In this document: in pieces, positions 6,975-48,307 of the stretch
Layout: each line of letters starts with the position of its first letter
Numbering within the stretch: position 1 is the stretch's first letter
Origin: Tabrizicola thermarum
GTDB lineage: Bacteria > Pseudomonadota > Alphaproteobacteria > Rhodobacterales > Rhodobacteraceae
Direction: 5' to 3'
Assembly: GCF_003574395.1 (NCBI RefSeq)
Contig: NZ_QMJY01000082.1
Span: 62,001 to 126,000 of the forward strand
Length of the DNA: 64,000 nt
Notes under the pieces: generated by a model
The model's input: the letters and a program-made list of their open reading frames with translations, nothing else
Database searches by the model: none
What the model was told of the DNA's origin: nothing
Translations under genes and position numbers: made by a program

Positions 6975-8090
<1,116 letters not shown>

Positions 8091-8092
8091 TC

Positions 8093-8110
8093 ATTCATCG
8101 AATGATGAAT
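8093..8110. promoter_or_regulatory. perfect palindrome upstream of tandem Lrp genes
   Basis: ATTCATCGAATGATGAAT has 7-bp perfect arms and a 4-bp spacer. It ends 13 bp before the first Lrp start codon, in the divergent gap shared with ilvC. Size and symmetry suit a Lrp/AsnC dimer site, so autoregulation is the likely role (inference). Confidence 0.5.
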
Positions 8111-8123
8111 CTTTGAGAAATCC

Positions 8124-8582
8124 ATGCAGCTTGATGACACCGACCGCCGCATCCTGCGCCACTGGCTGGCGGAGCCGGGGCTGGAGCGCCCCGTGCTGGC
8201 CGAGCGCGCCGGGGTGACGCCCGCGACGCTGTGGCGCAGGCTTGACCGGCTGCGCGCGGGCGGTGTGATCCGGTCCGAGGGCGCGCGGATCGACTGGCGC
8301 GCGCTGGGCTATGCGGTGGAGGTGAGCCTCCGCTTCACGCTGGACAAGACCAACCCACGCGCCTTCGACGAGTTCATCGCGGCGGCGCGCGAGGTGCCCG
8401 AGGTGATCGGGATCGAGACCTTCCTGGGCCGGGTCGATGTGCGGCTGAACGTGATCGCGCGGGACATGGGCCACTGGACCGGCATCTACCGCGACCGCAT
8501 CCTGACCCTGCCGCATATCGCCGAGGTGGAGGCGCTGATGCTGGTCTCGACCATCAAGGAGACGGGGGGGTTGCCCCTATGA
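8124..8582 (+). CDS. Lrp/AsnC-family regulator, first of tandem pair
   Basis: 152 residues. The N-terminal winged HTH (LDDTDRRILRHWL, VLAERAGVTPATLWRRLDRL) is followed by an AsnC ligand-binding/RAM domain (VSLRFTLDK, VPEVIGIETFLGRVDVRL, LTLPHIAEVEALMLVSTIK). Such proteins sense amino acids and act as dimers or octamers. Its last codons overlap the next regulator gene (ATGA), so the two are probably made together and could form mixed assemblies. The likely targets are itself, divergent ilvC, or the downstream enolase/aminotransferase pair. Confidence 0.9.
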   Translation: MQLDDTDRRILRHWLAEPGLERPVLAERAGVTPATLWRRLDRLRAGGVIRSEGARIDWRALGYAVEVSLRFTLDKTNPRAFDEFIAAAREVPEVIGIETFLGRVDVRLNVIARDMGHWTGIYRDRILTLPHIAEVEALMLVSTIKETGGLPL

Positions 8583-9073
8583 CTTTCAGCGTGATCGACC
8601 TTGACGACACCGACCGGGCGATCCTGCGGGAGCTGGTGGCGGATGGGACCCTGTCGGCGGGAGAGCTGGGGCGGCGGCTGGGGCTGAGCCAGCCCGCGGC
8701 CTGGCGGCGGGTGCGGCGGCTGGAAGAGGCGGGGGTGCTGAAGGGTCGCGCGGTCGAGGTGGACCGCGAGAAGCTGGGCTTCGGCGTGACGGTGTTCCTG
8801 GGGGTGAAGCTGGCCACCAAGGGGCGGGTGAGCCTGGAGGACTTCGAGCGTGCGGTGCAGGCGATCCCCGAGGTGCAGGTGGTGCAGCATGTGCTGGGCC
8901 TGTTCGACTACCGGCTGCGGGTCGTGGCGCGCGACATCGCGGATTTCGAGCGCGTCTTGCGCCGCCGGATCATGACGCTGCCGGGGGTCGGGAACGTCGA
9001 GGCCAACGTGCTTTTGACCGAGGAACGTCGCCCCGGACCCCTGGGCGTGGCGGAAACAGCTGCGAATCCGTGA
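8579..9073 (+). CDS. Lrp/AsnC-family regulator, second of tandem pair
   Basis: 164 residues with the same architecture as its neighbour: HTH LDDTDRAILRELV and LGRRLGLSQPAAWRRVRRL, then the RAM domain with VQAIPEVQVVQHVLGLFDYRL and MTLPGVGNVEANVLLTEE. The two are clearly paralogous but diverged, particularly in the ligand-pocket half. The start ATG lies within the upstream stop (ATGA). It is followed 39 bp later by the enolase-superfamily gene on the same strand. Confidence 0.9.
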   Translation: MTFSVIDLDDTDRAILRELVADGTLSAGELGRRLGLSQPAAWRRVRRLEEAGVLKGRAVEVDREKLGFGVTVFLGVKLATKGRVSLEDFERAVQAIPEVQVVQHVLGLFDYRLRVVARDIADFERVLRRRIMTLPGVGNVEANVLLTEERRPGPLGVAETAANP

Positions 9074-35805: not shown

Positions 35806-36327
35806 TTACGCCAGCACGTTGGACAGACGGCCGTAGATCAGCTCGTCCGCGCCTTCGGCATAGATGTCGCCCTTGTCGTCCACCCGCAGGGCGAACTGCG
35901 GCAGGTTCTGCGTGGCATGGCCCCAGACCTGCTGGCCACCCTTTTCACAGTCGAACCGGCTGAAGTGCCCGGGGCAGTTCAGCGTCTTGTCCGAGGCCGC
36001 ATAGCTCATGATGTAGCCCTTGTGCGGGCAGAGCACCGAATAGGCGACGATGTCGCCGTCCGGGCCGACGCCGCCCTCGACCGGGGTGCCCAGCTTCAGC
36101 AGGATGCCGGGGCTGTCAGCATCGGGGTAGCCGATGTCCATCGGCTCGTTCACCTTGAGGTCTGCCAGATTGGCAAGGCGGTTCGACGGATAGTCCACCA
36201 TCGCCCGCGCCTTCGCCTGTGCCTGCCCCGCAGGCATCACCGTTGCTGCCGCAGCCCCCGCCGCGCCAAGGATACCCCCGCGCAGGAACTGACGGCGGCC
36301 GACATCGACCAACCGGTTGCATTTCAT
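35806..36327 (-). CDS. aioB: arsenite oxidase small (Rieske) subunit
   Basis: 173 residues. A twin-arginine signal RRQFLRGG (residues 11-18) precedes a hydrophobic Ala-rich segment. The [2Fe-2S] ligands are C100 and H102 (LCPHKG) and C118 and H121 (NCPGHFSRFD). The usual disulfide cysteines of bc1-type Rieske proteins are missing, as in other AioB proteins lacking the bridge. It exports and accepts electrons from AioA. About 150 bp separate it from aioR upstream, with two palindromes, so aioBA probably has its own promoter. Confidence 0.96.
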   Translation of the reverse strand: MKCNRLVDVGRRQFLRGGILGAAGAAAATVMPAGQAQAKARAMVDYPSNRLANLADLKVNEPMDIGYPDADSPGILLKLGTPVEGGVGPDGDIVAYSVLCPHKGYIMSYAASDKTLNCPGHFSRFDCEKGGQQVWGHATQNLPQFALRVDDKGDIYAEGADELIYGRLSNVLA

Positions 36328-36430
36328 GTGAGCTTCCCTCCCTGGTTGCCTCTGCCCAAGAATAGCGGAGCGGAAGGGGGCGGCGCGACGGCCCAGAGAC
36401 TTGCGCCGCGCTGCGGCAAGTTGTTCAAAA

Positions 36431-36464
36431 TGTGCACAAATTTCGGGCGTTCGGATTTCCGAAC
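36431..36464. promoter_or_regulatory. two palindromes upstream of aioB
   Basis: TGTGCACA (36431-36438) and GTTCGGATTTCCGAAC (36449-36464, 7-bp perfect arms) lie about 104-137 bp upstream of the aioB start. The spacing is right for enhancer-like sites of a Fis-HTH response regulator. I found no convincing sigma-54 -24/-12 element (GG-N10-GC with the usual flanks) between them and aioB. Confidence 0.5.
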
Positions 36465-36477
36465 ATCGCCGCGCGGC

Positions 36478-37680
36478 CTAAAGCCCCAGCTTCTGCATCT
36501 TCTCCCACAAGGTGGTGCGCGACACGCGCAGCAGTCTTGCCGCCTCGCCCACCTGCCCGCCGGTCCGGTCCAGCGCCGCCACGATCTGCGCCCGTTCGGC
36601 CGCGTCGCGCACCTCGGCCAATGAGCGCATAGCGGCGTTCGCCGCGCGTTCGGGAAAGAGGTCGGAGGTCAGGACAAGCTCTCCCTCCGCCGCCTCGACC
36701 GCGCGCATCAGGCGGGCGCGCAGCTCGCGTCCGTTGCCCGGCCAGTCATGCGCGCGGATCGCCGCTTCCGCCGTCGCCGCGAGGCCGGTCAGCGGCGCCG
36801 CGCGACGGGCGTTGAAGCCGGGAAACAGCCGCGCCGCCAGCCAGACGGCATCGTCGGGGCGATCGGCAAGCGGGGGCACGACGATTTCGTGCGAGAGCAG
36901 AAGCGCCATGAGATCGGCCCGCAGCGCGGAGTCCTCGGCAGTCGGGACGCCCATGGTGGCGACCAGCCGGAAGCGCGGCGCGGAAAGCGCGGCCATGAGG
37001 GCGTCCTGCGCGGCAGACTCCAGCTGTCCGATGGCGATGACGACCAGCGTGCCCTCGCCGACCTGGCGCAGGGCGGATTGCAGGTCTTCGAACCCGACCC
37101 TGTCGCGCAGGGCGTTGCAGACGACCAGCGGCGCGGCCTTGCGGTCCGACAGGTCATGCAGCCGTCGCGCCAGCCGCAGCTTGCCCAGCCCGGAGGCCCC
37201 GCGGATCAGCAGCGCGTCATCGCGGGCCGCCGCTTCGGCCACCTGACGATCCACGGCGCGCGCGGCGGCGGTGATCCCGGTTTCGGGCGGCATCTCCTCG
37301 TCGGCGCGGGGCCGCATCACCGTGGCGAGCCGTTTCAGGAAGGCCCCGATCTCGAAGGGCTTGGTGATGTAATCGGCCGCCCCCGACCGGATCAGCCGCA
37401 CCGCCTGCTCGATCCCGCCCTGTCCGGTGATGAACAGGAAAGGCGGCGGATGGCCGGTGCGGGTGAGGGTGTCGTAAAGCTCTTCGCCCGTCCCGTCGGG
37501 CAGGCGGATGTCGCAGATCACCGCGTCGATCGGCTTGCGCGTGGTGCGGATGGCTGGCAGCGCGCGGGCGATGCCCTTGTGCCACTGGACATCGGCCCCT
37601 TCCAGCGTCAGGCGCTGGAGCAGCGAAGCCCCCATGATCTCGTCATCCTCGACCAGAACGATGCGGCGCCCTTCAAGCAT
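36478..37680 (-). CDS. aioR: response regulator AioR with degenerate AAA+ domain
   Basis: 400 residues. The receiver domain has the acidic pocket EDD (11-13), phospho-acceptor D57 (ICDIRLPDG) and Lys in YITKPFE. The central domain has a Walker A-like GASGLGKLRL (161-170), but the stretch that should hold GAFTGA is deleted and the Walker B position reads TLVVIAIG instead of a DE-containing strand. The C-terminal Fis-type HTH is intact (VGEAARLLRVSRTTLWEKM). It is the partner of AioS; the start ATG overlaps the aioS stop by 8 nt. Likely acts without sigma-54 (inference). Confidence 0.9.
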   Translation of the reverse strand: MLEGRRIVLVEDDEIMGASLLQRLTLEGADVQWHKGIARALPAIRTTRKPIDAVICDIRLPDGTGEELYDTLTRTGHPPPFLFITGQGGIEQAVRLIRSGAADYITKPFEIGAFLKRLATVMRPRADEEMPPETGITAAARAVDRQVAEAAARDDALLIRGASGLGKLRLARRLHDLSDRKAAPLVVCNALRDRVGFEDLQSALRQVGEGTLVVIAIGQLESAAQDALMAALSAPRFRLVATMGVPTAEDSALRADLMALLLSHEIVVPPLADRPDDAVWLAARLFPGFNARRAAPLTGLAATAEAAIRAHDWPGNGRELRARLMRAVEAAEGELVLTSDLFPERAANAAMRSLAEVRDAAERAQIVAALDRTGGQVGEAARLLRVSRTTLWEKMQKLGL

Positions 37681-39100
37681 CCTTGCCCCCATGCACCGGC
37701 AGATCGACCCGGATCACGGTCTGGCCATCGATCCGGTCATGCTGCACCCTTCCACCTAGGCCCGCGACGATGTCATGCACCAGCCGAAGGCCCACGCCGC
37801 CGCCCGGGGGCAGGGGGCCGGAGGCCATGAGCCGCGCCAGATCGGCCTCGGTCATCGCCGCGCCGGTGTTGCTGACCGTGATGGACAGCCCGTCCCCACC
37901 GTTGGTCACGCGCAGACCCACGCGGCCATTGACGCCCGCCGCGGCGCCCGCGTTGAGAAGCAGGTTGAGCGCGACCTGGCGCACCGGGGCTGCGGGTTGC
38001 CCCGCCAGCGAGGCCGCGCCTGCGTGGACCTGCCAGTCCAGCACCTGCGACCGGCTGTGCGCCTCGGGCTCGAACAGAAGGCGCAGGTCCTCGAAATCCT
38101 CGGGGCGCAAGGGCTGGCCGGCGCGGTCAAGCCGGTTCTGGTCCAGGATCGCGCGGGTCACGTCGCGCAGGTGGCCCAGGCCGCGCCGCATCAGTTCGGC
38201 CGACTGGCGCACCACTTCGGGCCGGTCGGCATAGGTGTGGATGGTGTCGGCCGCGTTCAGCAGGCCACCCAGCGGGTTGTTCACCTCATGCGCAAGCGAC
38301 GAGGACAGCCGCCCGAGGCTGACAAAGCGTTCGCGGTCGGCCAGGCGGCGTTCGGCCTCGGCGCGTTCCTCGACGGCAGTCGTCATCTGGTTGTAGGTCT
38401 GGATCAGCCGTGCCAGCCCCGGATCGCCCTGCGGGATTTCGGCGGCAGGGATCGGTCGGGGTGCGCCTCCCGAGGCATCCATCGCCTGCACCAGCGCCCC
38501 CACAGGCCGCAGGATGCGCGCCACGGCAAGCCAGCCGCCGAAGGCCAGCAGCGCCGTCGCCAGGGCATTGCCGACCAGAAGCCACAGCGTGACATTGCGC
38601 CGTTCGGCCAGAAGGTCGGTGACGTCCAGTTCGGTGACGATGCTGCCGATCGTACGACCCTGGTACTGGAGCGGGGCCGTCACCCGCAGGGTGGGATCGC
38701 CGGTCATCCGCACTGCCTGAGGGGCGACAGCACCCTGTTCGAACTCTGTTGCATCCTTGCCGACGGGCGCGCGGCGCGGATCGGTCGCCGCCAGCACCAG
38801 ACCCCTCTCGTCCGCGACAACCGTCAGAAGCAGTCGCTGCCCCGCGTTGCCTGCCCGGGCCCGGTCAAGGATGTCGTAGACCTCCCAGACGTCCTGTCGC
38901 AGGACCGAGGGTCCCAGCGCGACCGACAGACCTTCGACATGCAGGCGTGCCGCTTCGGACAATCGGGCATCCTGCACGCGGCCAAGGGCGGACAGAACGC
39001 CCTGGCTGGCCACAAGGCCCAGAAGGATCATCAGCGCCGCCGAGATCAGCGGCACGCGCAACGTGACGGGCAGGACGCGAAAGCGACGCAGGAGCTTCAT
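37673..39100 (-). CDS. aioS: sensor histidine kinase AioS
   Basis: 475 residues. Two membrane helices (~17-38 and ~170-195) flank a periplasmic domain of ~130 residues. A HAMP-like linker follows, then H-box LSSSLAHEVNNPLGGLL with H271. The ATPase part has LNLLLNAGAAAG (N-box variant), a glycine motif GGGVGLRLVHDI and ends VDLPVHGGKDA. It receives the arsenite signal from AioX and phosphorylates AioR. It overlaps aioX by ATGA and aioR by 8 nt, so all three are made together. Confidence 0.92.
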   Translation of the reverse strand: MKLLRRFRVLPVTLRVPLISAALMILLGLVASQGVLSALGRVQDARLSEAARLHVEGLSVALGPSVLRQDVWEVYDILDRARAGNAGQRLLLTVVADERGLVLAATDPRRAPVGKDATEFEQGAVAPQAVRMTGDPTLRVTAPLQYQGRTIGSIVTELDVTDLLAERRNVTLWLLVGNALATALLAFGGWLAVARILRPVGALVQAMDASGGAPRPIPAAEIPQGDPGLARLIQTYNQMTTAVEERAEAERRLADRERFVSLGRLSSSLAHEVNNPLGGLLNAADTIHTYADRPEVVRQSAELMRRGLGHLRDVTRAILDQNRLDRAGQPLRPEDFEDLRLLFEPEAHSRSQVLDWQVHAGAASLAGQPAAPVRQVALNLLLNAGAAAGVNGRVGLRVTNGGDGLSITVSNTGAAMTEADLARLMASGPLPPGGGVGLRLVHDIVAGLGGRVQHDRIDGQTVIRVDLPVHGGKDA

Positions 39101-39945
39101 CCACCCCCCAGGTCCGCCATGCGCGCGGCGATCCCGTCGAAGAGCAAAGGCTCGCCCGCGGTGATACCGTCGAGATAAAGCAGTCGCAGAACCGCCTGAC
39201 CCTGATCGGTCCGGTCAAAGCCTTGAAGGGCTGCGGCACAGGCCTGGATGCCGGCCTCGTTCCTTCGGGTGCGGCGCGCGACGAAGGGCGGAAAGCCCAG
39301 CTTTTCGGATCGGGTGATGATCCTGGTGCGCGCGGTCAGGCCGGGTTCGACGCTGTTCAGGACCTCCCACACATAGCCGTCGACGCTACCCGACCGGGTC
39401 AGCCCGCCCGCCACGGCGCGGACGACGTTGCGGTGGCCATAGGTGAAGATCGCCCGGGAAAAGAAGCGGTCCGGCGCCTCGCCCATGCGGGCAAGGTCCG
39501 AGGCGGTGACGAGGTAGCCCGAGTTGCTGTCGGGGTCGGAAAAGGCATGTGCTCCGCCGCGCAGATCGGCAAGACTGGTGGCGGGATCATCGGCAGCAGC
39601 GATCAGGTAGGACTGGTAAAGCGGCGCGCCGCGCCAGACCGGCACACCCAGCAGCGACAGCTCTGCCCGATGCTGCACGAAAGGATAGCCACAGGTCCAG
39701 GCGGCATCGACCGACCCGTCGAGCAGCGCGCCGGTGATCTCCTGATAGGTGCGCCGCTGGACAAGCTCGATCTCCCGACCCATCGCCGACGCCAGCGCGG
39801 CGCGCAGCGCCGAGATCACGGCGGCATCGTTGTCCAGAAACACCGGGGTCAGCGCAAAGCGGAACGGTTCGGCCGCTTGCGCCCGCACCGTCGGCGCCGC
39901 ACAGGTAGCCGCCGCCATCAGGATCGCGCCCCGCCGTGTCAGCAT
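39097..39945 (-). CDS. aioX: periplasmic arsenite-binding protein AioX
   Basis: 282 residues, a PhnD-like periplasmic binding protein with an N-terminal signal (ILMAAATCAAPTVRAQA). Family segments are FALTPVFLDNDAAVISAL, QRRTYQEITGALLDGSVDAA and SDPDSNSGYLVTASDL. C85 (AAWTCGYPF) corresponds to the conserved cysteine shown to be needed for As(III) binding in Agrobacterium AioX. First gene of the aioXSR-BA series; the 140-bp gap to arsR upstream holds both promoters. Confidence 0.93.
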   Translation of the reverse strand: MLTRRGAILMAAATCAAPTVRAQAAEPFRFALTPVFLDNDAAVISALRAALASAMGREIELVQRRTYQEITGALLDGSVDAAWTCGYPFVQHRAELSLLGVPVWRGAPLYQSYLIAAADDPATSLADLRGGAHAFSDPDSNSGYLVTASDLARMGEAPDRFFSRAIFTYGHRNVVRAVAGGLTRSGSVDGYVWEVLNSVEPGLTARTRIITRSEKLGFPPFVARRTRRNEAGIQACAAALQGFDRTDQGQAVLRLLYLDGITAGEPLLFDGIAARMADLGGG

Positions 39946-40033
39946 CCCTTCCTCCCTCGGGCCGCAAGGCAGTGCCCCAGAACGGCACCCCGGCCCCGCG
40001 GTGAAGACTGGCTCTTGCCGCGCAGTCCGTCAA

Positions 40034-40049
40034 ATCGTAATTCAACGAT
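40034..40049. promoter_or_regulatory. operator-like palindrome upstream of arsR
   Basis: ATCGTAATTCAACGAT has 5-bp perfect arms around an AT-rich 6-bp spacer, ending 36 bp before the arsR start and 88 bp from the aioX start. Position and form suit an ArsR dimer site that could repress arsR-acr3 and possibly aioX. Confidence 0.5.
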
Positions 40050-40085
40050 GATCGACCGGAACCCGACCCCCGCCATGAGGCCAGC

Positions 40086-40406
40086 ATGTCCGAAGACGAG
40101 ACGGTAGTCACCCTGGCCAAGGCCCTGGCCCACCCCGCGCGCATCCGCATCCTGCGCCTGTTGCAGGCCACGCCGGGCTGCATCGGCGGGACCATTGTCG
40201 ATGCAGTGGGTCTCGCGCAGTCCACGGTGTCCGAACATCTGCGCATCCTGAAGGCGGCCGGGGTGATTTCCGGCGAGATCGACGGCCCGCGCGTGTGCTA
40301 CGCATTGAACCCCAGGGCACTGTCCGTGCTGGCCGATTTTGTGGCGTCCCTGAAGGCCGCTGACCGTGATGCCTGCTGCATCCCCGAACCGAAAGCCGCG
40401 ACATGA
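40086..40406 (+). CDS. arsR: ArsR-family arsenite-responsive repressor
   Basis: 106 residues. Winged HTH with [16 protein letters not shown] and [19 protein letters not shown]. It does not have the ELCVCDL As-site of the plasmid type; instead cysteines are C32, C71 and a C-terminal pair C97-C98 (DACCIP), close to the C-terminal As(III)-site design known from the Acidithiobacillus ArsR. Released from DNA by As(III) by analogy. It overlaps acr3 by ATGA and diverges from aioX. Confidence 0.92.
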
Positions 40407-41422
40407 GCCTTTTCGAACGTTATCTGACCCTGTGGGTCGCGCTGTGCATTCTGGCGGGACTGTCGCTTGGCGCGGTGTTGCCCGGCGTCTTTGCCGCCTT
40501 GGCAAGCCTGGAGTATGCCTCGGTCAACCTGATCGTCGCGGTGCTGATCTGGGCCATGGTCTATCCGATGATGGTGGCGGTCGATCTGGGCTCGCTGAAG
40601 GCGGTCGGGCAGCGGCCAAAGGGGCTGGTCATCACGCTGGTGGTCAACTGGCTGGTCAAGCCCTTCACCATGGCGGCGCTGGGGGTGCTGTTCTTCCAGC
40701 ATCTCTTCGCGGGGCTGATCGACGGTGCCAAGGCCCCGGAATACATCGCCGGGCTGATCCTTCTGGGCGCGGCCCCCTGCACGGCCATGGTCTTCGTCTG
40801 GTCGCAGATGACGAGGGGCGATCCGAACTATACGCTGGTGCAGGTCAGCCTGAACGACCTGGTCATGGTGGTGGCTTTCGCGCCCATCGTGGCCTTCCTT
40901 CTGGGCGTCACCGATATCGCCGTGCCCTGGGAGACGCTGATCCTGTCCACGGTCCTGTATGTCGTGATCCCGCTGGCGACGGGGGCGCTGACCCGCTCGG
41001 CGCTGATCCGGCAAGGCGGGGAGGGCGCGGTTGCCGCCTTCACCGCCCGGATCAAGCCTGCCTCGATCCTGGGGCTTCTGCTGACCGTGGTGCTTCTGTT
41101 CGGCTTCCAGGGGCCGGTCATCCTGGCGCAGCCCGTCCTGATCGCGCTGCTTGCGGTGCCGATCATCATCCAGTCCTACGGCATCTTCGCCCTGGGCTAT
41201 GGCTGGGCCTATCTCTGGCGCCTGCCGCACCGGATTGCCGCCCCCTGCGCGCTGATCGGCACGTCGAACTTCTTCGAGCTCGCGGTCGCCGTGGCCATCG
41301 GGCTGTTCGGTCTCAACTCCGGCGCGGCCCTGGTGACGGTGGTGGGGGTCCTGGTCGAAGTCCCGGTGATGCTGTCGCTGGTGGCCTTTGCCAACCGCAC
41401 GCGGGGCAGCTTTCCGCAATGA
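40403..41422 (+). CDS. acr3: ACR3-family arsenite efflux permease
   Basis: 339 residues with ten predicted helices. The conserved cysteine of ACR3 lies in [16 protein letters not shown] (C126) and the essential acidic residue in [26 protein letters not shown] and [10 protein letters not shown] are other family blocks. It exports As(III) driven by the proton gradient. Co-translated with arsR (ATGA). Together with Aio it gives two ways to lower internal arsenite: export here and periplasmic oxidation by AioBA. Confidence 0.95.
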
Positions 41423-41477: not shown

Positions 41478-42791
41478 TCAGGCGGAGAGGTCGGGCACGC
41501 CAAGCTCGAAGTGCTCGCCGGGGTAGAACTTCGCCAGCCGGATGTCGGCGGATCGGGCGTGGCCCTCCATGCCTTCCAGCCGGGAAATCCGGGCCGTGGC
41601 CTCGGCCAGGGGGCGGACAGCGGGACGTGTGGCGCGCTGCCAGGTGACGGTCTTCATGAACTTGTGCACCGAAAGGCCCCCGGTATAGCGGGCAGCCCCC
41701 GAGGTCGGCAGGACGTGGTTCGGACCCGAGGTCTTGTCGCCGAAGGCCACGGTGGTCTCTTCGCCCAGAAACAGCGAGCCATAGGCGCGCAGGCGGTCCA
41801 GCCACCAGTCAAGGTCGCGGGCCTGCACATGCAGGTGTTCGGGGGCCTGAGCGTCGGCGACCCGTGCCATGTCCTCGCGGCTGTCGCAGAGGATGATCTC
41901 GGCCATGTTGTCCCAGGCGGCGCGGGCGCTTTCGCGGTTGACCTCGGGCAGCGAGGCGATGAGGTCCGGGACGATCTGCATCACGCGTCGGGCGAGAGGT
42001 TCGTCGTCGGTGACCAGCCAGACGGGCGAGTTGTAGCCGTGTTCGGCCTGCCCGACGAGGTCATAGGCCACGATCTCGGCATCGGCGGAGGCATCGGCGA
42101 CGACCATGCTGTCGGTCGGGCCCGCGAACATGTCGATTCCGACCTGGCCGAACAGCATCCGCTTGGCTTCGGCCACATACTGATTGCCTGGGCCGACGAG
42201 GATGTCGGCCTTGGGCAGCCCGAAGTGCCCATGCGCCATGGCGGCCACGCCCTGCACGCCGCCCAGGTTCAGGATCACGTCGGCGCCGCACAGGTCCATC
42301 GCGTAAAGGATCGCAGGCGGAATGCCGATGCCGGGGCGGGGTGGAGAGCAGGCGGCGATATGGGGGACGCCGGCGACCTTGGCGGTGGTGATGGTCATGA
42401 TCGCGCTGGCGGCATGGCTGTAGCGCCCGCCGGGAACGTAGCAGCCGGCGGCCGAGATCGGGATCTGCTTCTGCCCCGCCATCAGGCCGGGAATGATCTC
42501 GACCGCACAATCGGACAGCGTTGCGCGCTGCGCCTCGGCAAAGCGGCGGATGTTGGCGTGGGCGAAACGGATGTCGTCCTTCAGTCTCTCGGGCACTTGC
42601 GCGGCAGCTGCGTCCAGAGCTTCGCGGCTGACGATGATGTCTCCCTCCCATTTGTCGAAGGTGCGGGAATAGTCGCGCACCGCGGTCTCGCCCTCGACGG
42701 TGATGCGGGCCAGCATGACCTGCACGAGGTCGCGGACGTCGTGGCTGTCGGTCTCGGGCGTGGTCGAGGCTTGTTTCAGGTAGATCATCAT
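41478..42791 (-). CDS. HisD-like dehydrogenase in aminosulfonate operon
   Basis: 437 residues of the histidinol dehydrogenase fold. All E. coli HisD zinc and catalytic residues have equivalents: Q248 and H251 (VGQAEHGYN), E318-H319 (QAPEHLHV), D352 (FGDKTSGPNHVLPTSG) and H411 (LEGMEGHARSADIR). NAD-linked four-electron oxidation of an alcohol to a carboxylate is therefore expected. The gene is the last of a sulfonate import/lyase operon, not a his operon, so the substrate is probably a sulfonated alcohol: 2,3-dihydroxypropane-1-sulfonate (HpsN role) or cysteinolate. The two ATGs at 42791 and 42788 are both usable. Confidence 0.88.
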   Translation of the reverse strand: MMIYLKQASTTPETDSHDVRDLVQVMLARITVEGETAVRDYSRTFDKWEGDIIVSREALDAAAAQVPERLKDDIRFAHANIRRFAEAQRATLSDCAVEIIPGLMAGQKQIPISAAGCYVPGGRYSHAASAIMTITTAKVAGVPHIAACSPPRPGIGIPPAILYAMDLCGADVILNLGGVQGVAAMAHGHFGLPKADILVGPGNQYVAEAKRMLFGQVGIDMFAGPTDSMVVADASADAEIVAYDLVGQAEHGYNSPVWLVTDDEPLARRVMQIVPDLIASLPEVNRESARAAWDNMAEIILCDSREDMARVADAQAPEHLHVQARDLDWWLDRLRAYGSLFLGEETTVAFGDKTSGPNHVLPTSGAARYTGGLSVHKFMKTVTWQRATRPAVRPLAEATARISRLEGMEGHARSADIRLAKFYPGEHFELGVPDLSA

Positions 42792-42804
42792 GGGGTCTTT
42801 CGGG

Positions 42805-43689
42805 TCACATCCGGCCCTTCCAGGGCACGAGGCGGCGTTCAAGGAAGCGCATCAGAAGGTCGAAGGCGAAGGCGATGATCGCGATCACGAAGATCCCCAT
42901 GATGACGACCGAGGTTTGCAGGAACTGGCTGGCCGACAGGACCATGTAGCCAAGCCCCTTGGTGGCGGCGACCATTTCCGCCGCAACAAGGGTTGTCCAG
43001 CCAAAGCCGATGCCGACCCGCATCGCGGTCAGGATTTCCGGCATGGCCGAAGGCAGGATCACATGGCGCATCACCTGCCAGCGCGTCGCGCCGAAGGAAT
43101 AGGCGGCGTGGATCTGCTCGATGGCGGCGGACTTCACGCCGGACCGGGCGCCCAGGACGATGGGGGCGAACATCGACAGGAAGATCAGAAGGACCTTCGA
43201 GGTCTCGTCGATGCCGAACCAGATGATCATCAGCGGCAGATAGGCGAGGGGGGGGATCGGGCGGTAGAATTCGATCGGCGGGTCGAAGATGCCGCGCATC
43301 ACCGGGCTCATCCCCATCGCAAGGCCAAGGGGCAGGCCGATCAGGCAGGCGAGAATGAAGGCACTGAACACCCGGAAGGTGGAGATCGATACATGCTCCA
43401 GAAAGGGGGTGTTGGTGAAGCCCTGGTTCCAGATCTGCACGAACTTGGCCAGCACCGACTGGGGCGAGGGCACGAAAAGCGGTTTCACCAGCCCCAGCGC
43501 TGTGACGAGCCACCAGACGAAAAGCATGACGAGGACGGAGGCGACCGAGAGCCAGAAGGTGTTGCCCTGGCCGGGGACGCCGTAAATCTCGCCCGGTTTG
43601 GTGGCGCGCGCGCGGGAGAGGCGGGCCCGGATCCCTGCGCCATTCGCGGCGGCTTTCGCCGGGGCTTTCGGGGGCGGCGACAGGGTCAT
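42805..43689 (-). CDS. tauC: sulfonate-type ABC transporter permease
   Basis: 294 residues with six helices. Typical TauC/SsuC blocks are FVPSPQSVLAKF, STFRVFSAFILACLIGLPLG, IIWFGIDETSKVLLIF and the EAA loop SFGATRWQVMRHVILPSAMPE (core near residue 200), then GFGWTTLVAAEMVAA. A 45-residue charged N-terminal extension (KAPAKAAANGAG) precedes helix 1. It overlaps tauB by ATGA and is followed 13 bp later by the HisD-like gene. Confidence 0.9.
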   Translation of the reverse strand: MTLSPPPKAPAKAAANGAGIRARLSRARATKPGEIYGVPGQGNTFWLSVASVLVMLFVWWLVTALGLVKPLFVPSPQSVLAKFVQIWNQGFTNTPFLEHVSISTFRVFSAFILACLIGLPLGLAMGMSPVMRGIFDPPIEFYRPIPPLAYLPLMIIWFGIDETSKVLLIFLSMFAPIVLGARSGVKSAAIEQIHAAYSFGATRWQVMRHVILPSAMPEILTAMRVGIGFGWTTLVAAEMVAATKGLGYMVLSASQFLQTSVVIMGIFVIAIIAFAFDLLMRFLERRLVPWKGRM

Positions 43690-44474
43690 TCCAGGGCCTC
43701 CTCATCGGCGAAGATGATGTTCAGGACGGTCTCGCGCAGCGCGATGAACTCGGGCGAGGCCTTGACCTTCCGCGCGGGGGTGCCGGACTGGAACTGGCGC
43801 GAGAAGGGCAGGTCGAAGCGATGGGTGATCCGGCCCGGTCGCGGCGACATCACGATCAGCTTGGTGCCCATGAACAGCGCCTCTTCGACGCTGTGGGTGA
43901 TGAAGAAGACGGATTTGCCCGTCTCGCCCCAGATCTTCAGGATCAGCTCCTGCGCCTTTTCCCGGGTCAGCGCGTCCAGCGCACCGAGCGGTTCGTCCAT
44001 CAGCAGCACTTTCGGGTCGCAGGTCAGCGCGCGGGCGATGCCGACGCGCTGCTGCATCCCGCCCGACAGTTTGTAGACCGGAGAGTTCTGGAAGCCGTCG
44101 AGGCCAAGAAGGCCGATGTAATCGTTGGCGGTGCGGGTGCGGGCCTCCTTGCCAACCCCTTGCAGCATAAGCCCGAAGGCGACGTTGTCGAGGACGTTCA
44201 ACCAGGGCAGCAGCGCGTGTTTCTGGAAGACCACGGCGCGGTCGGCCCCGGGGCCGGAGACGGCGCGGCCCTCCAGCGTCAGGCTTCCGGTCGTGGGTGA
44301 CAGGAACCCCGCGATCAGGTTCAGAAGCGTGGATTTGCCGCAGCCCGACGCGCCAAGCGCCACGACGAACTCACCTTCGGCGATGGTCAGGTCGATCTCG
44401 CTGAGCGCGGCCACCGGGGGGCGCCCGTCGGCGGCCGGGTAAATCACCGAGACATGGTCGATGTTCAGGCTCAC
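43686..44474 (-). CDS. tauB: sulfonate-type ABC transporter ATP-binding protein
   Basis: 262 residues. Walker A ALGASGCGKSTLLNLI, Q-loop VFQKHALLPWLNVLDN, signature LSGGMQQRVGIARAL, Walker B VLLMDEPLGALDAL and H-loop ITHSVEEALFMG. The pattern LLPWLNVLDNVAFGL is typical of the TauB/SsuB/NrtD group. It overlaps tauC by ATGA. A stem-loop separates it from tauA. Confidence 0.92.
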   Translation of the reverse strand: MSLNIDHVSVIYPAADGRPPVAALSEIDLTIAEGEFVVALGASGCGKSTLLNLIAGFLSPTTGSLTLEGRAVSGPGADRAVVFQKHALLPWLNVLDNVAFGLMLQGVGKEARTRTANDYIGLLGLDGFQNSPVYKLSGGMQQRVGIARALTCDPKVLLMDEPLGALDALTREKAQELILKIWGETGKSVFFITHSVEEALFMGTKLIVMSPRPGRITHRFDLPFSRQFQSGTPARKVKASPEFIALRETVLNIIFADEEALE

Positions 44475-44498
44475 AAGGCGCGGTCCTTCAACGATGGG

Positions 44499-44528
44499 CT
44501 CCGCCCGGACCCTGGGGCCCGGGCGGAG
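44499..44528 (-). other. intercistronic stem-loop between tauA and tauB
   Basis: CTCCGCCCGG/CCGGGCGGAG with a 10-nt loop lies 10 bp past the tauA stop and 24 bp before the tauB start. As with the other binding-protein gene in this window (26523-26554), it could stabilise the upstream mRNA and lift binding-protein output. Confidence 0.6.
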
Positions 44529-44538
44529 AGGATCGGGT

Positions 44539-45528
44539 CTACTGCGCCGCGGCGGCGGCGTAGGTCGGGTTCACGAAGGCCGAATAGTCGTCAAGCGCGG
44601 CCTCGATCCGGCCCGCCTTGACCAGGAAGTCCGCCGTGGTCTTGATCTTGGGCGCGGCTCCTCCGAGCCAGGCCTCGCCGATCTGCTCGGCCATCGGCAG
44701 GAAAGTGAAGCCTTCGAGGATGCCGGGAACCTGGGCCGGGTCGGCACCCGTCGCGGCGGCAAGCGCCTTCACCTCGGCGCTGTCGGCGGTCCAGGCGGCG
44801 GGGTTTGCCAGATACATGCCGTTGACCTTGTCCACGGCCTTCAGGAAGGCCACGATCTTGTCGGGGTTCGCCTCGGCGAAGGATTTGCTGACCACCCAGC
44901 CGTCATAGGTCGGAAAGCCCCATTCGGCGGTCTGGTCCGCACCCACGACCAGCGTGCCGGTCTTCAGGATCTCGGACTGTACCGGCTGCCAGATCCAGGC
45001 CGCGTCGATGGTGCCCTGACCCCAGGCCGCCGCGATATCGTCGGGCTTCATCCCGACGATATTGACGTCCGTCTCGGCCAGTCCCTCGTGCTGAAGCGCA
45101 CCCATCAGCGAGTAGTGCGCAGTCGATCCGATCGGGACGCCCACGGTCTTGCCCTTGAGGTCGGCGACCGAGGCGATGCCCGAGCCTTCGCGGGCGATCA
45201 GCGATTCCGCCTTTCCGATCACATCCGAATAGGCGATCAGCTCGATCTCCAGGCCGGCGCTCGTGCCGATTGCGATCGGAGAGGAGCCGAGTTCCGACAG
45301 CACCACGTCGCCCGAGGCCATGGCCGCGATCACGTCGGTCCCGGCGTCGAACTTGCGCCACTCGATCTCCCAGCCAGTGGCCTGGGCCAGCTCGTCCGAG
45401 GTGGACAAAAGCTGCATCGGCGTCGGGTTGCCGAAATGGCCGATGATGACCTTTTCGGCCAGCGCCTGGCCGGCAAGAAGGGCCGTGGCAGCGGCGCCAA
45501 GAAGGAAATGCTTCAGTTTCAGGCTCAT
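44539..45528 (-). CDS. tauA: sulfonate-type periplasmic binding protein
   Basis: 329 residues with a signal peptide (FLLGAAATALLAGQALA). The mature protein begins EKVIIGHFGNPTPMQLL and has WRKFDAGTDVIAAMASGDVV, LGSSPIAIGTSAGLEIEL and KGKTVGVPIGSTAHYSLMGAL, diagnostic of TauA-like proteins (taurine and related 2-aminosulfonates). In this operon, with cysteate lyase and racemase, the ligand may be cysteinolate, cysteate or DHPS rather than taurine. The start MSLKLKHFLL is used; the longer form lacks a proper signal. Confidence 0.9.
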   Translation of the reverse strand: MSLKLKHFLLGAAATALLAGQALAEKVIIGHFGNPTPMQLLSTSDELAQATGWEIEWRKFDAGTDVIAAMASGDVVLSELGSSPIAIGTSAGLEIELIAYSDVIGKAESLIAREGSGIASVADLKGKTVGVPIGSTAHYSLMGALQHEGLAETDVNIVGMKPDDIAAAWGQGTIDAAWIWQPVQSEILKTGTLVVGADQTAEWGFPTYDGWVVSKSFAEANPDKIVAFLKAVDKVNGMYLANPAAWTADSAEVKALAAATGADPAQVPGILEGFTFLPMAEQIGEAWLGGAAPKIKTTADFLVKAGRIEAALDDYSAFVNPTYAAAAAQ

Positions 45529-45559
45529 GGTCGTCTCCTCTGTTGGTCGTTGTCGGTTC

Positions 45560-46264
45560 TTATCTGTCCCCGTGCGTCCCGTCGGCGGCGAAGTCCCGGA
45601 TCGCCGCAACCAGCACGTCCAGCGTGTCGAACGCCGTCACCCCGTCCGCCATGGCATCCGCCAGAAGCGAGAACTCGGTACAGGCGATCATCTGCACCTT
45701 GGCACCCCGCTGCAAGAGCGCATCCGAGGCCGAGCGCAGCGCAGAGGCGGCTTCGGGCCCCGGACCTGCTGCCTTGATCCGGCGAATGGCCAAAAGAAGG
45801 GCATCTTCGCAGGCAGGGTAGAGCGGCTGCACGCCAGACCGCGCGAGCGGCGCGTCGAACAGGCCGATCCTCCGCACGGCGGGCGAGGCGAGGATGCCGA
45901 CGCGACCGCCAGGCCCCGCAAGCCGGGCCGCATGACGGGTCGAGAGGTCGACCATGTCGATGAACGGCACCGTCACGGCAGCGCGGATGTCGGCTGCGTA
46001 GTGGTGGGCGGTGTTGCAGGGCATGGCCAGCGCCTCGGCCCCCGCCGCGACCAGGCGGCGCGCCATGTCGGTCAGGACCGGGGCAGGGTCCTCGCCCGTC
46101 CCTTCGATCAGGCGGCGGATGCGCGAGGGGACCTGGGGGTTCTGGTCGACGATCAGAGGAAGATGGTCGGCATCGTCACTGGCGGGTGTGGCGTCCAGCA
46201 CCTTCTGCATCAGCAGGATGGTTGCCTGTGGTCCCATGCCGCCCAGGATGCCGACACGCCGCAT
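45560..46264 (-). CDS. Asp/Glu-family racemase, proposed cysteate racemase
   Basis: 234 residues, PLP-independent two-cysteine racemase. The N-terminal glycine motif is RRVGILGGMGPQATILLMQK. The catalytic cysteines are C83 (AMPCNTAHHY) and C194 (MIACTEFSLL). It sits between the cysteate sulfo-lyase gene (1-nt overlap) and tauA (31 bp), which makes D-cysteate/L-cysteate interconversion the most likely role; I recall such an activity being described for a Ruegeria homologue. Aspartate racemase is the alternative. Confidence 0.85.
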   Translation of the reverse strand: MRRVGILGGMGPQATILLMQKVLDATPASDDADHLPLIVDQNPQVPSRIRRLIEGTGEDPAPVLTDMARRLVAAGAEALAMPCNTAHHYAADIRAAVTVPFIDMVDLSTRHAARLAGPGGRVGILASPAVRRIGLFDAPLARSGVQPLYPACEDALLLAIRRIKAAGPGPEAASALRSASDALLQRGAKVQMIACTEFSLLADAMADGVTAFDTLDVLVAAIRDFAADGTHGDR

Positions 46265-47283
46265 CAGACCTCCAGCGCCTTCCGGTCCTCGGCAAAGACC
46301 GCGTCATAGCCGAACAGGCCCGCCGCACCGCCGGTATGCAGGAAGACCACGCGCTGGCCCTTGCTGAATTGGCCCTTGCGGATCAGGTCGATCAGCCCCG
46401 CCGCGCCCTTGCCGGAATAGACGGGATCAAGCAGGATGCCTTCCAGCTGCGCGAACATGGCGATGGCTTCCAGCGTGTCGGCGCGCGGGATGCCGTATCC
46501 CTGGCCCACATAATCGCAGTTCGCCACCACATCCGCGCGGGCGACGACGCCGGGGCAGCCGAGCTTTTCGGAGGTCTTCTGGGCAAGGGCGAAGACGTTC
46601 GCCTCCTGTTTTTCCTTCGGCGCGCGGACGCCGATGCCGAGCAGCGGAATCCCGGCGTTCAGCGCCTTGAGCCCGGTGACAAGTCCGGCTTGCGTCCCCG
46701 CGCTGCCGGTGGCGGTGACGATCTGGTCGATCACGAGGCCCCGGTCGTTGGCCTGGCCCACGAGTTCGAAGGCGCAGTTGACGTAGCCAAGCGCGCCCGT
46801 GGGGTTCGACCCGCCGCCCGGGATGATGTAGGGCCTCCGCCCCTCGGCCCGCAGACGGTCGGCCAGCAGCTCCATCTCGGCGGCCATGTCCACGCCCCCG
46901 GCGCGGCGCGAGGTGGTGGCACCGTGAAGATGGTCGAGCAGCACGTTGCCGTTGCCGTTGTAGTTGGGATCGTTCGACCCGGTCCGGTCCTCCAGCAGGA
47001 TATGGCAGGCCAGCCCCAGCCTGGCCGCAAAGGCCGCGGTCTGGCGGGCGTGGTTCGACTGGGTCGCCCCTTGGGTGATGACGGTATCCGCGCCCTGGAT
47101 TTCGGCCTCGGCCATGAGGAATTCCAGCTTGCGGGTCTTGTTTCCGCCGGTCGACAGCCCGGTGCAGTCATCGCGCTTGATCCAGATTTCAGGCCCGCCA
47201 AGTTCTTTCGTCAGCCGGTCCAGCCGTTCCAGCGGGGTCGGCAGGTGCGCCAGGAAAATGCGGGGAAACCGGGCGAGATGCAT
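46264..47283 (-). CDS. cuyA: L-cysteate sulfo-lyase (CuyA-type, D-cysteine desulfhydrase family)
   Basis: 339 residues. PLP fold type II related to ACC deaminase and D-cysteine desulfhydrase. It begins [19 protein letters not shown], very close to characterised CuyA, with the PLP lysine in [13 protein letters not shown] (K49), [32 protein letters not shown] and [14 protein letters not shown]. It splits L-cysteate to pyruvate, ammonium and sulfite. First gene of the operon; the 109-bp gap to the divergent LysR gene contains repeated CTTGCAGAT sites. Confidence 0.92.
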
Positions 47284-47301
47284 GGGGCGCGTCCTTCATA
47301 A

Positions 47302-47380
47302 CTTGCAGATGCCATGATTCAGTCAGGACCTGCGCAATTGCAAATGCGAAATTGACGCGATATCTTGCAGATATTGCAAG
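47302..47380. promoter_or_regulatory. LysR-type binding region between cuyA and lysR
   Basis: CTTGCAGATATTGCAAG (47364-47380) is a perfect palindrome with the T-N11-A form of a LysR box. CTTGCAGAT occurs again at 47302-47310, 62 bp away (about six helical turns), and GCAATTGC lies between (47334-47341). Two half-sites on one DNA face is the usual LysR tetramer layout with activation of the divergent cuyA operon (inference). Confidence 0.6.
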
Positions 47381-47392
47381 TTGGAGGCGCCG

Positions 47393-48307
47393 ATGCGGCT
47401 TGAGTGGCTGGAAGACATTCAGGCCATTGCACAGACCGGGTCGTTCAGCGGGGCGGCAGAACGGCGGAATCTGACCCAATCGGCCTTCTCGCGCAGGATC
47501 CGGCAGATCGAGGACTATGTGGGCGTCGAACTGTTCGACCGAAGCCGCAAGCCGGTGCAGCTGCGCCCGATGACCGAGGCTCAATCTGCCCAGATCGAAC
47601 AGATCGTGGCAGCCCTGCGCCAGCTGGTGGTCGACCTGCGCCGGGGTGATCGGGTGGCCTCGAACCGCATCGTCATTGCCAGTCAGCACTCGCTGACGAC
47701 CTCGCTTGCGCCCCGGATCATCCAGGGGATCCGGTCCGGCGGGCAGGAGGTCTTTGTCCGGCTGCGCTCGGCCAACCTCGACGACTGCTTCGGCCTTCTC
47801 CTGTCGCGGTCGGCGGATCTGGCCGTCGTCTACGGCCTTCCGGGAGAGGCGGCGTTTCCGGGCGAGTATCTGGAGACGATCGACCTCTGGTCCGACCGGC
47901 TGATCCCGGTGCTGCGGCCGGACCGGGCCCAGGCTATTCAGGCCGGCCTAGGCGAGTTGGCCTATGTCGCCTATCCGCCCGAGGTCTTCTTCGGCGGGAT
48001 CATGACCCAGCGCATCCTGCCTGCGCTTGATCCCGGCTGGATTGCCGTGCCTCGGGCCGAGACCGCGCTGACGCTGGCCGCGCTCGAGATGGCGGCAGAG
48101 GGTGTTGCCCTGGCCTGGGTTCCGGCGACCCTGGCCCGGCTCGGCATCGCGCAAGGGCGGATCGCCGATCTGTCCGATGTCCTGCCAGGCTCGCCCTTGT
48201 CCGTGCGGGCCGTCCGTTTGAAGGGCGCCCGCGCTCCGGCCGAGGAGGTGACGTGGCACCACATCCTGTCGCTGCGCGAGAGCGGCCCGCCGAACCTTGC
48301 CGGATGA
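47393..48307 (+). CDS. LysR-family regulator of the aminosulfonate operon
   Basis: 304 residues. The HTH is IAQTGSFSGAAERRNLTQSA with FSRRIRQIEDYVGVELFDRS. The effector domain starts near residue 90 (RIVIASQHSLTTSLAPRII) and contains LLSRSADLAVVYGLPGE and AYPPEVFFGGIMTQ. Starts at ATG 47393 after GGAGG; an upstream in-frame TTG/ATG would overlap the LysR box. It is divergent from cuyA, so the effector is probably cysteate or a precursor. Confidence 0.9.
   Translation: MRLEWLEDIQAIAQTGSFSGAAERRNLTQSAFSRRIRQIEDYVGVELFDRSRKPVQLRPMTEAQSAQIEQIVAALRQLVVDLRRGDRVASNRIVIASQHSLTTSLAPRIIQGIRSGGQEVFVRLRSANLDDCFGLLLSRSADLAVVYGLPGEAAFPGEYLETIDLWSDRLIPVLRPDRAQAIQAGLGELAYVAYPPEVFFGGIMTQRILPALDPGWIAVPRAETALTLAALEMAAEGVALAWVPATLARLGIAQGRIADLSDVLPGSPLSVRAVRLKGARAPAEEVTWHHILSLRESGPPNLAG

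Follow-up and report, generated by a model that had tools for sequence, protein, structure and literature searches.

The window, a stretch of 64,000 nucleotides of Tabrizicola thermarum, carries a minus-strand operon with a divergent LysR gene, as the initial annotation described. All seven genes (7/7) lie at the coordinates and on the strands given there, and each matches its expected family. The features are as follows.

41478–42842, minus strand: zinc alcohol dehydrogenase of the HpsN type (HisD-like), proposed to act on cysteinolate (PF00815, 446 bits)
42805–43689, minus strand: TauC-like ABC permease (NF007545, 328 bits, cut-off 342)
43686–44474, minus strand: TauB-like ABC ATPase (NF008421, 337.9 bits, cut-off 357)
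44539–45609, minus strand: TauA-like binding protein (TIGR01729, 299.7 bits, cut-off 304.25)
45560–46264, minus strand: CuyB, cysteate racemase (NF052483, 288 bits, cut-off 190)
46264–47283, minus strand: CuyA, PLP-dependent D-cysteate sulfo-lyase (NF052482, 551.7 bits, cut-off 450)
47364–47380, no strand: inverted repeat CTTGCA-GATAT-TGCAAG in the cuyA–LysR intergenic region, seen in the sequence
47381–48307, plus strand: divergent LysR-type regulator, CuyR-like by position (PF00126 and PF03466)

CuyA and CuyB both score above their curated cut-offs, and the two cysteine motifs of CuyB, PCNTAH and CTEFS, align with those of the aspartate racemase 1JFL; we take the two cysteines to be catalytic. 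All three transporter subunits match models of the TauABC taurine importer best, but each falls just below its equivalog cut-off. The TauA-like reading frame runs from a TTG, and its start is likely the ATG of codon 28. A LysR homologue stands beside cuyA in the same place in several relatives. The inverted repeat between the two genes is a possible regulator site. Of 18 such intergenic stretches, three, with that of the window among them, contain its pattern, which was written after the window repeat had been seen; single-base shuffles give a mean of 0.035. Promoter and terminator scans gave scores near those of their shuffles.

The gene order cuyA, with or without a DegT-family gene, then cuyB, tauABC and the HisD-like gene, is found again in other genera and also on named Mesorhizobium and Ancylobacter plasmids, and this recurrence argues against chance. 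The compact operon had been regarded as the special point of this genome; in fact several Rhodobacterales and Hyphomicrobiales genera have it too, with Shinella kummerowiae, Paracoccus sediminis and Leisingera methylohalidivorans among the culturable carriers. The presence of cuyA, cuyB, tauABC and an HpsN-like gene in one operon supports the earlier view of a self-contained aminosulfonate pathway. The operon shares with known CuyA/CuyB cysteate dissimilation the cut-off-passing lyase and racemase and the LysR regulator, and several of its relatives also share a CuyZ-type exporter. It differs by adding a sulfonated-alcohol dehydrogenase and by its Tau-type transporter, where R. pomeroyi takes up cysteate via cuyTUVW, according to passages of PMC10130141.

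By its sequence, the window dehydrogenase is an HpsN-type enzyme and not a HisD of histidine synthesis. It is 67% identical to the HpsN of R. pomeroyi (RpHpsN, SPO0594, 8WWE) and 56% to that of C. pinatubonensis (CpHpsN, 8V35), whereas it shares no more than about 40% with the HisD rows. The six zinc and catalytic residues that had been claimed are all present, as Q265, H268, E335, H336, D369 and H428 of the TTG-started reading frame. The numbers given earlier (Q248, H251, E318, H319, D352 and H411) are these minus 17, which is CpHpsN numbering; the true start is likely the ATG of codon 18 at 42791, giving a protein of 437 amino acids, and the 17-residue offset fits this start. The sulfonate-binding His126 and Lys353 of CpHpsN are kept as H143 and K370, and all 36 cuy-linked rows of the alignment retain this pair together with the catalytic and zinc residues. 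The name 'HisD-like' should give way to HpsN-like, given the identity values and the sulfonate-binding His and Lys. In HisD an amino alcohol gives up two hydrides in turn at a zinc site; the window enzyme would resemble it in this chemistry and shares its catalytic residues. The window pocket, however, has the sulfonate-binding residues where all three HisD rows (3/3) have Tyr at both positions.

It is very improbable that a genuine histidinol dehydrogenase gene has come to lie here by chance. The protein does score 435 bits on TIGR00069, the equivalog model for HisD with a cut-off of 244, but a probable HpsN of Paracoccus versutus also passes it (443 bits), so the model does not discriminate. 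A separate, normal HisD with a stronger match lies elsewhere in the genome. The low identity to HisD compared with RpHpsN, the Tyr-to-His and Tyr-to-Lys changes in the pocket and the conserved link to sulfonate genes all stand against such a role.

The initial annotation had proposed placing the dehydrogenase on a tree with HisD and HpsN. There it lies outside the RpHpsN clade (support 100/99); forcing it into that clade costs 35 log units but is not rejected, at an AU p of 0.09. The RpHpsN clade of the careful tree holds 46 rows (37 hps, 9 unlinked and no cuy), and all 36 cuy-linked rows fall outside it, so that cuyA/cuyB-linked and hpsO/hpsP-linked enzymes separate. The cuy side comprises 57 rows (support 87/86), which places the window enzyme, with moderate support, in a separate clade; the careful tree as a whole shows one label change. 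Nine of the 15 two-copy genomes carry one copy of each type. On the tree rooted on HisD, CpHpsN falls outside both groups. Their shared ancestor may therefore have acted on DHPS, an activity that the cuy clade may still have. The careful tree was used because a quick tree proved suboptimal, with constrained trees scoring higher: 7 units above it with the window trio held on the RpHpsN side (p 0.575), and 39 and 41 units above it when all rows of the hps group or of the cuy side, respectively, were forced to stay in one clade. We know of no assay for any enzyme of the cuy-side clade.

No known active-site contact residue differs between the cuy and hps groups in our residue comparison. The columns that best separate the groups (Cp 381, 165, 48 and others) were considered as specificity switches, yet none is among the known contacts. 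At Cp 381 and 48, CpHpsN, a DHPS enzyme, matches the cuy group, and these columns were dropped as evidence of a new substrate.

The gene neighbourhoods separate the two groups further. We compared 35 cuy loci, 39 hps loci, 13 orphan loci and 7 tau loci. Within the fetched stretches, SuyB, ComC, SlcD, ComD and TRAP genes occur in 0 of 35 cuy loci, and CuyA or CuyB in 0 of 39 hps loci. A taurine-type permease is present in 15/35 cuy loci versus 0/39 hps loci, a glycine-betaine-type system in 3/35 versus 1/39, and a CuyZ-type exporter in 9/35 versus 5/39; RidA is found in two cuy loci. Taurine- and glycine-betaine-type transporters are both for zwitterions. The window enzyme matches HpsN in its fold family, in the residues for catalysis and zinc and in the His and Lys that bind the sulfonate, but it is without hpsO/hpsP or TRAP partners and has cuyA/cuyB and zwitterion-type transporters instead.

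These features bear on the reading in which the window gene encodes a conventional R-DHPS 3-dehydrogenase, DHPS being oxidised to R-sulfolactate, then by an unrecognised dehydrogenase to sulfopyruvate, which a transaminase would convert to L-cysteate for CuyB and CuyA. In favour of this, the protein is 67% identical to an enzyme with proven R-DHPS dehydrogenase activity and has the same known contact residues, and a published CuyA-type DHPS pathway joins HpsN and CuyA. The absence of an aminotransferase noted earlier is true of the window operon but does not extend to its relatives, as a DegT-family aminotransferase lies in 11 of 35 cuy-linked loci, in keeping with the transaminase step. A DegT homologue (58%) elsewhere in the window genome is uninformative, since 29 of 30 genomes have a match.

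The DHPS route would need companion genes, and we compared 20 cuy-only genomes, the window genome included, with 10 hps-only genomes. HpsP is found in 0/20 versus 10/10, SuyB in 0/20 versus 8/10, and any close sulfolactate-consuming enzyme in 2/20, both with a sulfolactate dehydrogenase, versus 10/10 (Fisher p 2e-6, kinship ignored), with cut-offs for close homologues that were chosen after the scores had been seen. Between the lowest hps and the highest cuy score, the gap for ComC is small (263 versus 243 bits), so ComC alone is weak evidence; those for SlcD (467 versus 274) and SlcC (280 versus 201) are clearer. The SlcD and SlcC queries were named by position and from parts of PMC11382572 and PMC12421959, with no model match behind the names; the ComD query passes TIGR03845, and the ComC query scores 204 against a cut-off of 500 on its sulfolactate dehydrogenase model. 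The DHPS route is possible in two genomes, one with SlcD and ComD (G105) and one with an SlcC-like gene and ComD (G007), and several cuy-only genomes have lower-scoring homologues of ComC (243 bits at most) and SlcD (274 bits at most).

In the window genome, neither hpsO nor hpsP lies in the operon, and a genome-wide search for six proteins found no HpsP (E 1e-60), SuyB, ComC, SlcD or ComD within its limits and no close SlcC. Sulfolactate dehydrogenase is thus missing, as stated earlier, from the operon and, as far as close homologues of the three types that were searched are concerned, from the rest of the genome. The alternative of DHPS oxidation with the remaining genes elsewhere is weakened accordingly. 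Together with the separate clade, the hps-clade copy already present in 9 of 15 two-copy genomes and transporters of taurine or betaine type rather than TRAP, this makes the DHPS reading unlikely, although it is the strongest competitor. Since the genome-wide search for these DHPS-route genes came up empty, an amino-alcohol substrate, cysteinolate oxidised to cysteate, fits best, and the earlier choice of cysteinolate as the likeliest substrate gains support.

It is less likely still that the enzyme works on a different sulfonated amino alcohol, for example N-methylated cysteinolate once it has been demethylated, or on several C3 sulfonate alcohols; cuyA/cuyB would then be for cysteate alone. 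A dimethylglycine-dehydrogenase-like flavoprotein (73–87% identity) accompanies 4 of 35 cuy loci, two of which also have an MttB-family gene, and 1 of 13 orphan loci. In Leisingera the operon has both genes on its flanks, and a Ruegeria plasmid carries genes with these annotations some 7–10 kb away from it. However, such neighbours are missing from the window operon and most relatives, and the flavoprotein also has a 64% homologue in one hps locus and distant forms (32–36%) in two tau loci. Copies in the 7 taurine-type clusters and copies without CuyA also favour this reading. We fetched 13 cuy-clade copies with neither cuyA nor cuyB in the stretch, some stretches stopping at contig ends; no CuyA was found at E 1e-120 in 11 of these 13 genomes, and 7 of the 11 had no ComD or close SlcD either, so the route we propose cannot run there as drawn.

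For the window, we consider it probable, judging from gene content and homology, that the operon serves aminosulfonate import and mineralisation, with an HpsN-type cysteinolate dehydrogenase feeding CuyB and CuyA. Aminosulfonates would be taken up through the Tau-type ABC transporter. At its zinc site the dehydrogenase would use NAD+ twice to convert cysteinolate (2-amino-3-hydroxypropanesulfonate) to cysteate by oxidation of the terminal alcohol, and the substrate may bind by its sulfonate and its 2-amino group on zinc, as the sulfonate and 2-hydroxyl do in CpHpsN. By homology to the curated families, CuyB would interconvert L- and D-cysteate, and CuyA would split D-cysteate to pyruvate, ammonium and sulfite. 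Cysteate from outside would enter at CuyB/CuyA.

The stereochemistry originally drawn, from D-cysteinolate via D-cysteate to L-cysteate for CuyA, has to be reversed at its end: CuyA matches a D-cysteate sulfo-lyase model and CuyB a cysteate racemase model, and D-cysteate is the preferred CuyA substrate in an excerpt of PMC11382572. With D-cysteinolate as substrate the racemase would not be needed. The characterised relatives of the dehydrogenase act on R-DHPS and L-histidinol, and the CpHpsN product site binds L-cysteate, as it does R-sulfolactate, which favours the L (R) form of cysteinolate. This form would, less surely, be oxidised to L-cysteate, and CuyB would then be needed before CuyA. 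The natural compound is called the D form, opposite to the enantiomer favoured by the family, in a title cited by PMC8703288.

The cysteate half of this pathway is known, and the HpsN-type step is the new part. Our literature search found no published cysteinolate-degrading enzyme; Liu et al. (J Biol Chem 2024, 300, 107371; probably the CuyA/CuyB paper), Denger et al. 2009 and Burchill and Williams 2022 (a review of cysteinolic acid) may already propose the step. Cysteinolate is described as a widespread osmolyte of marine microalgae in PMC8703288, and PMC11631085 gives it as the head group of a lipid from a roseobacter; the operon makes the question of its breakdown testable. More tentatively, the HpsN family may consist of two enzymes divided by substrate: a DHPS dehydrogenase linked to hpsOP and sulfolactate genes, and a cysteinolate dehydrogenase linked to cuyA/cuyB, which would belong to a full import-to-sulfite pathway, plasmid-borne in marine Rhodobacterales and in Hyphomicrobiales and in some strains supplied by N-demethylating enzymes that would give it access to methylated cysteinolate. 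In the four cuy-type plasmid copies examined, the dehydrogenase is annotated as histidinol dehydrogenase, the lyase as D-cysteine desulfhydrase and the racemase as amino acid racemase. If the proposed route is true, the annotations of the dehydrogenase, lyase and racemase of cuy-type copies would change, and ocean counts of 'hpsN' may mix two functions.

The operon consists, as the initial annotation had it, of six minus-strand genes with a divergent LysR gene. The lyase passes the NCBIfam 'D-cysteate sulfo-lyase' model (CuyA; cut-off 450) at 551.7 bits, and the racemase passes the 'cysteate racemase' model (CuyB; cut-off 190) at 288 bits; the best NCBIfam matches of the three transporter genes are taurine models, each slightly under its cut-off. 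For the cysteate half of the operon, the biology is already known. The dehydrogenase and the side features of the window are as follows.

35806–41422: arsenic genes adjoining the operon, namely an AioB-type arsenite oxidase small subunit (TIGR02694), a sigma-54-type response regulator, a histidine kinase, a PhnD-like binding protein (possibly AioX), an ArsR regulator and an ACR3 efflux pump
41478–42842, minus strand: the dehydrogenase
47284–47392: CTTGCAGAT, present twice, one copy inside a perfect 6-5-6 inverted repeat; of 18 intergenic stretches only 3, one of them that of the window, have a TTGCA-N5-TGCAA site

The label 'HisD-like' captures the family relation of the dehydrogenase but not its closer identity, which is of the HpsN type, as its structure matches and its His/Lys pocket indicate. 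Its top structure matches are the HpsN enzymes of R. pomeroyi (RpHpsN; 8WWE, 67% identity) and C. pinatubonensis (CpHpsN; 8V35, 56%), with HisD structures far lower, and a second, proper HisD is present elsewhere in the genome. According to PMC11382572, CpHpsN binds the sulfonate of R-sulfolactate through zinc, His126 and Lys353, is highly selective for R-DHPS, does not oxidise L-histidinol, and binds L-cysteate essentially like its product; PMC11131964 gives RpHpsN activity on R-DHPS plus weak activity on L-histidinol. In our alignment the window enzyme and 36/36 cuy-linked rows carry His and Lys at the sulfonate-binding positions, which are both Tyr in the three HisD rows. Judged from its sequence, the window dehydrogenase is a sulfonate-recognising enzyme of HpsN type. 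None of the contact residues known from HpsN distinguishes cuy-linked from hps-linked enzymes in the alignment, so the substrate cannot be read from the sequence.

We give the genomic context by locus. Among 295 genomes of the family sample, 153 have an HpsN-type match and 76 have CuyA, both at E 1e-120. A contig scan kept 80 loci, of which 26 (L003–L028; 66–87% identity) were used; from the other 54, at about 40% identity or less, only a few were taken, as outgroup. A further 80 stretches were retrieved around HpsN-type genes, and 104 loci remained for the large tree once L027 and L028 (dehydrogenase truncated or split) were left out; the sample includes an identical pair (L021, L115) and a nearly identical one (L004, L143). 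In L028, from a Tabrizicola MAG, the match at 7625–8931 falls into two overlapping pieces in different frames, which reads as a frameshift or assembly error. A locus received the label hps when its stretch held HpsO or HpsP, failing that cuy when it held CuyA or CuyB, and failing that tau when it held TauC.

The phylogenetic comparison with HisD and HpsN proposed initially places the window enzyme on the cuy side, outside the RpHpsN clade. In the careful tree (110 rows), a single change suffices for the hps and cuy labels: the RpHpsN clade holds 46 rows (37 hps, 9 unlinked, 0 cuy; support 100/99), and the opposite side 36 cuy, 7 tau and 14 unlinked (87/86). When rooted on HisD, by a very long branch, CpHpsN and three other rows fall outside both sides; constraining all hps rows to one side in the quick tree was not rejected (p 0.885). 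Moving the window enzyme, together with its two closest relatives, onto the RpHpsN side costs 35 likelihood units, a placement that is unlikely but that the AU test does not reject (p 0.09). Both copies were retrieved for 15 of the 20 two-copy genomes; in nine the copies are split between the clades, and in six both belong to the hps clade.

The neighbourhoods differ as well. Cuy loci (n=35) carry CuyA (32), CuyB (34), a DegT-family aminotransferase (11), a CuyZ-type exporter (9), TauC (15) and ProX/ProW (3), with the dehydrogenase immediately adjoining CuyA or CuyB in 20; TRAP, SuyB, ComC, SlcD and ComD occur in 0/35 of the retrieved stretches. Hps loci (n=39) carry HpsP (38), HpsO (34), TRAP (25), SuyB (14), ComD (15), SlcD (12), ComC (9) and, more rarely, a CuyZ-type exporter (5), DegT (1) and ProX/ProW (1). 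CuyA or CuyB is found in 0/39 of their retrieved stretches, an absence not imposed by the labels; cuy loci, by contrast, lack HpsO and HpsP by definition. The seven tau loci, one of which (L015) ends at a contig end, have TauC without CuyA or CuyB, and five have a class III aminotransferase. DegT genes lie between or beside cuyA and cuyB in L004, L005, L007, L008, L017, L028, L113 and others, and in genome G083 cuyA adjoins one and the cuy-clade dehydrogenase is absent. DegT-family aminotransferases usually aminate ketones, and those of cuy loci may act on sulfopyruvate or on cysteinolate in its ketone form. N-demethylation of methylated aminosulfonates is suggested by MttB-family genes and dimethylglycine-dehydrogenase-like genes that adjoin the operon or lie close to it (L195, 931–5081; L176, L186, L020, L173; L198).

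The initial annotation offered DHPS oxidation, with the remaining genes elsewhere, as an alternative; neither HpsP nor a close sulfolactate-consuming enzyme was found in the window genome, so that DHPS oxidation there would stop at sulfolactate unless an unrecognised enzyme continues. We compared 20 cuy-only genomes (the window genome and every retrieved single-copy cuy-linked genome; only G096 below 90% complete) with 10 of 17 retrieved single-copy hps-only genomes (three below 90%). HpsP is present in 0/20 versus 10/10, SuyB in 0/20 versus 8/10, and ComC (>250 bits, by a small score gap) in 0/20 versus 8/10. SlcD (>400 bits) is found in 1/20 (G105) versus 2/10, precisely the two without SuyB, SlcC-like proteins (>250 bits) in 1/20 (G007) versus 1/10, and ComD (>250 bits) in 3/20 (G105, G110, G007) versus 1/10. 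At least one close sulfolactate-consuming enzyme occurs in 2/20 versus 10/10 (p 2e-6, with kinship ignored and cut-offs set post hoc).

For thirteen retrieved cuy-clade copies, neither CuyA nor CuyB lies within the stretch, and two of their genomes show CuyA elsewhere (E 1e-120). In seven of the 13 genomes, each single-copy, neither CuyA at E 1e-120 nor ComD nor SlcD above 250 bits was found, so in these either the product fate or the substrate must differ. The loci L126, L130, L134, L136, L180, L183, L184 and L190 hold a cuy-clade dehydrogenase, without cuyA or cuyB, among partly common neighbours; in the relatives L179 and L185, cuyA and cuyB occupy seemingly the same site, adjoining a gene that we take from its sequence to be LepA.

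From the initially proposed D-cysteinolate route, cysteinolate is kept as the likeliest substrate; its conversion of D-cysteate to L-cysteate for CuyA is not supported, as CuyA matches the D-cysteate sulfo-lyase model. By our own stereochemical derivation, the counterpart of R-DHPS with an amino group in place of the C2 hydroxyl is L(R)-cysteinolate, and that of R-sulfolactate is L(R)-cysteate. A route from L-cysteinolate is simplest because HisD, RpHpsN and CpHpsN all use that spatial form: the dehydrogenase would oxidise L-cysteinolate to L-cysteate, CuyB would convert this to D-cysteate, and CuyA would release pyruvate, ammonium and sulfite, which would explain the presence of the racemase. 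The algal naming is a difficulty for this route. Of the titles cited by PMC8703288, one names the compound D-cysteinolic acid and another has '2-L-amino'; by our derivation both denote the S form, from which D-cysteate would be made directly, CuyB being left for external L-cysteate.

The genes for CuyA, CuyB and the dehydrogenase are plasmid-borne in Mesorhizobium sp. 131-2-1, Ancylobacter pratisalsi, Leisingera methylohalidivorans and Ruegeria sp. SCSIO 43209, where they bear the labels D-cysteine desulfhydrase, amino acid racemase and histidinol dehydrogenase; Paracoccus versutus has in their stead what looks like an hps cluster, with genes of the UxaA and Ldh families. No report of a cysteinolate-degrading enzyme was found in the literature searched, whose scope excluded the likely CuyA/CuyB paper and a cysteinolic acid review, so the novelty of the cysteinolate step is uncertain. 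The HpsN-type dehydrogenase of the operon is a distinct and recurring variant that looks undescribed, and its most likely job is to oxidise cysteinolate.
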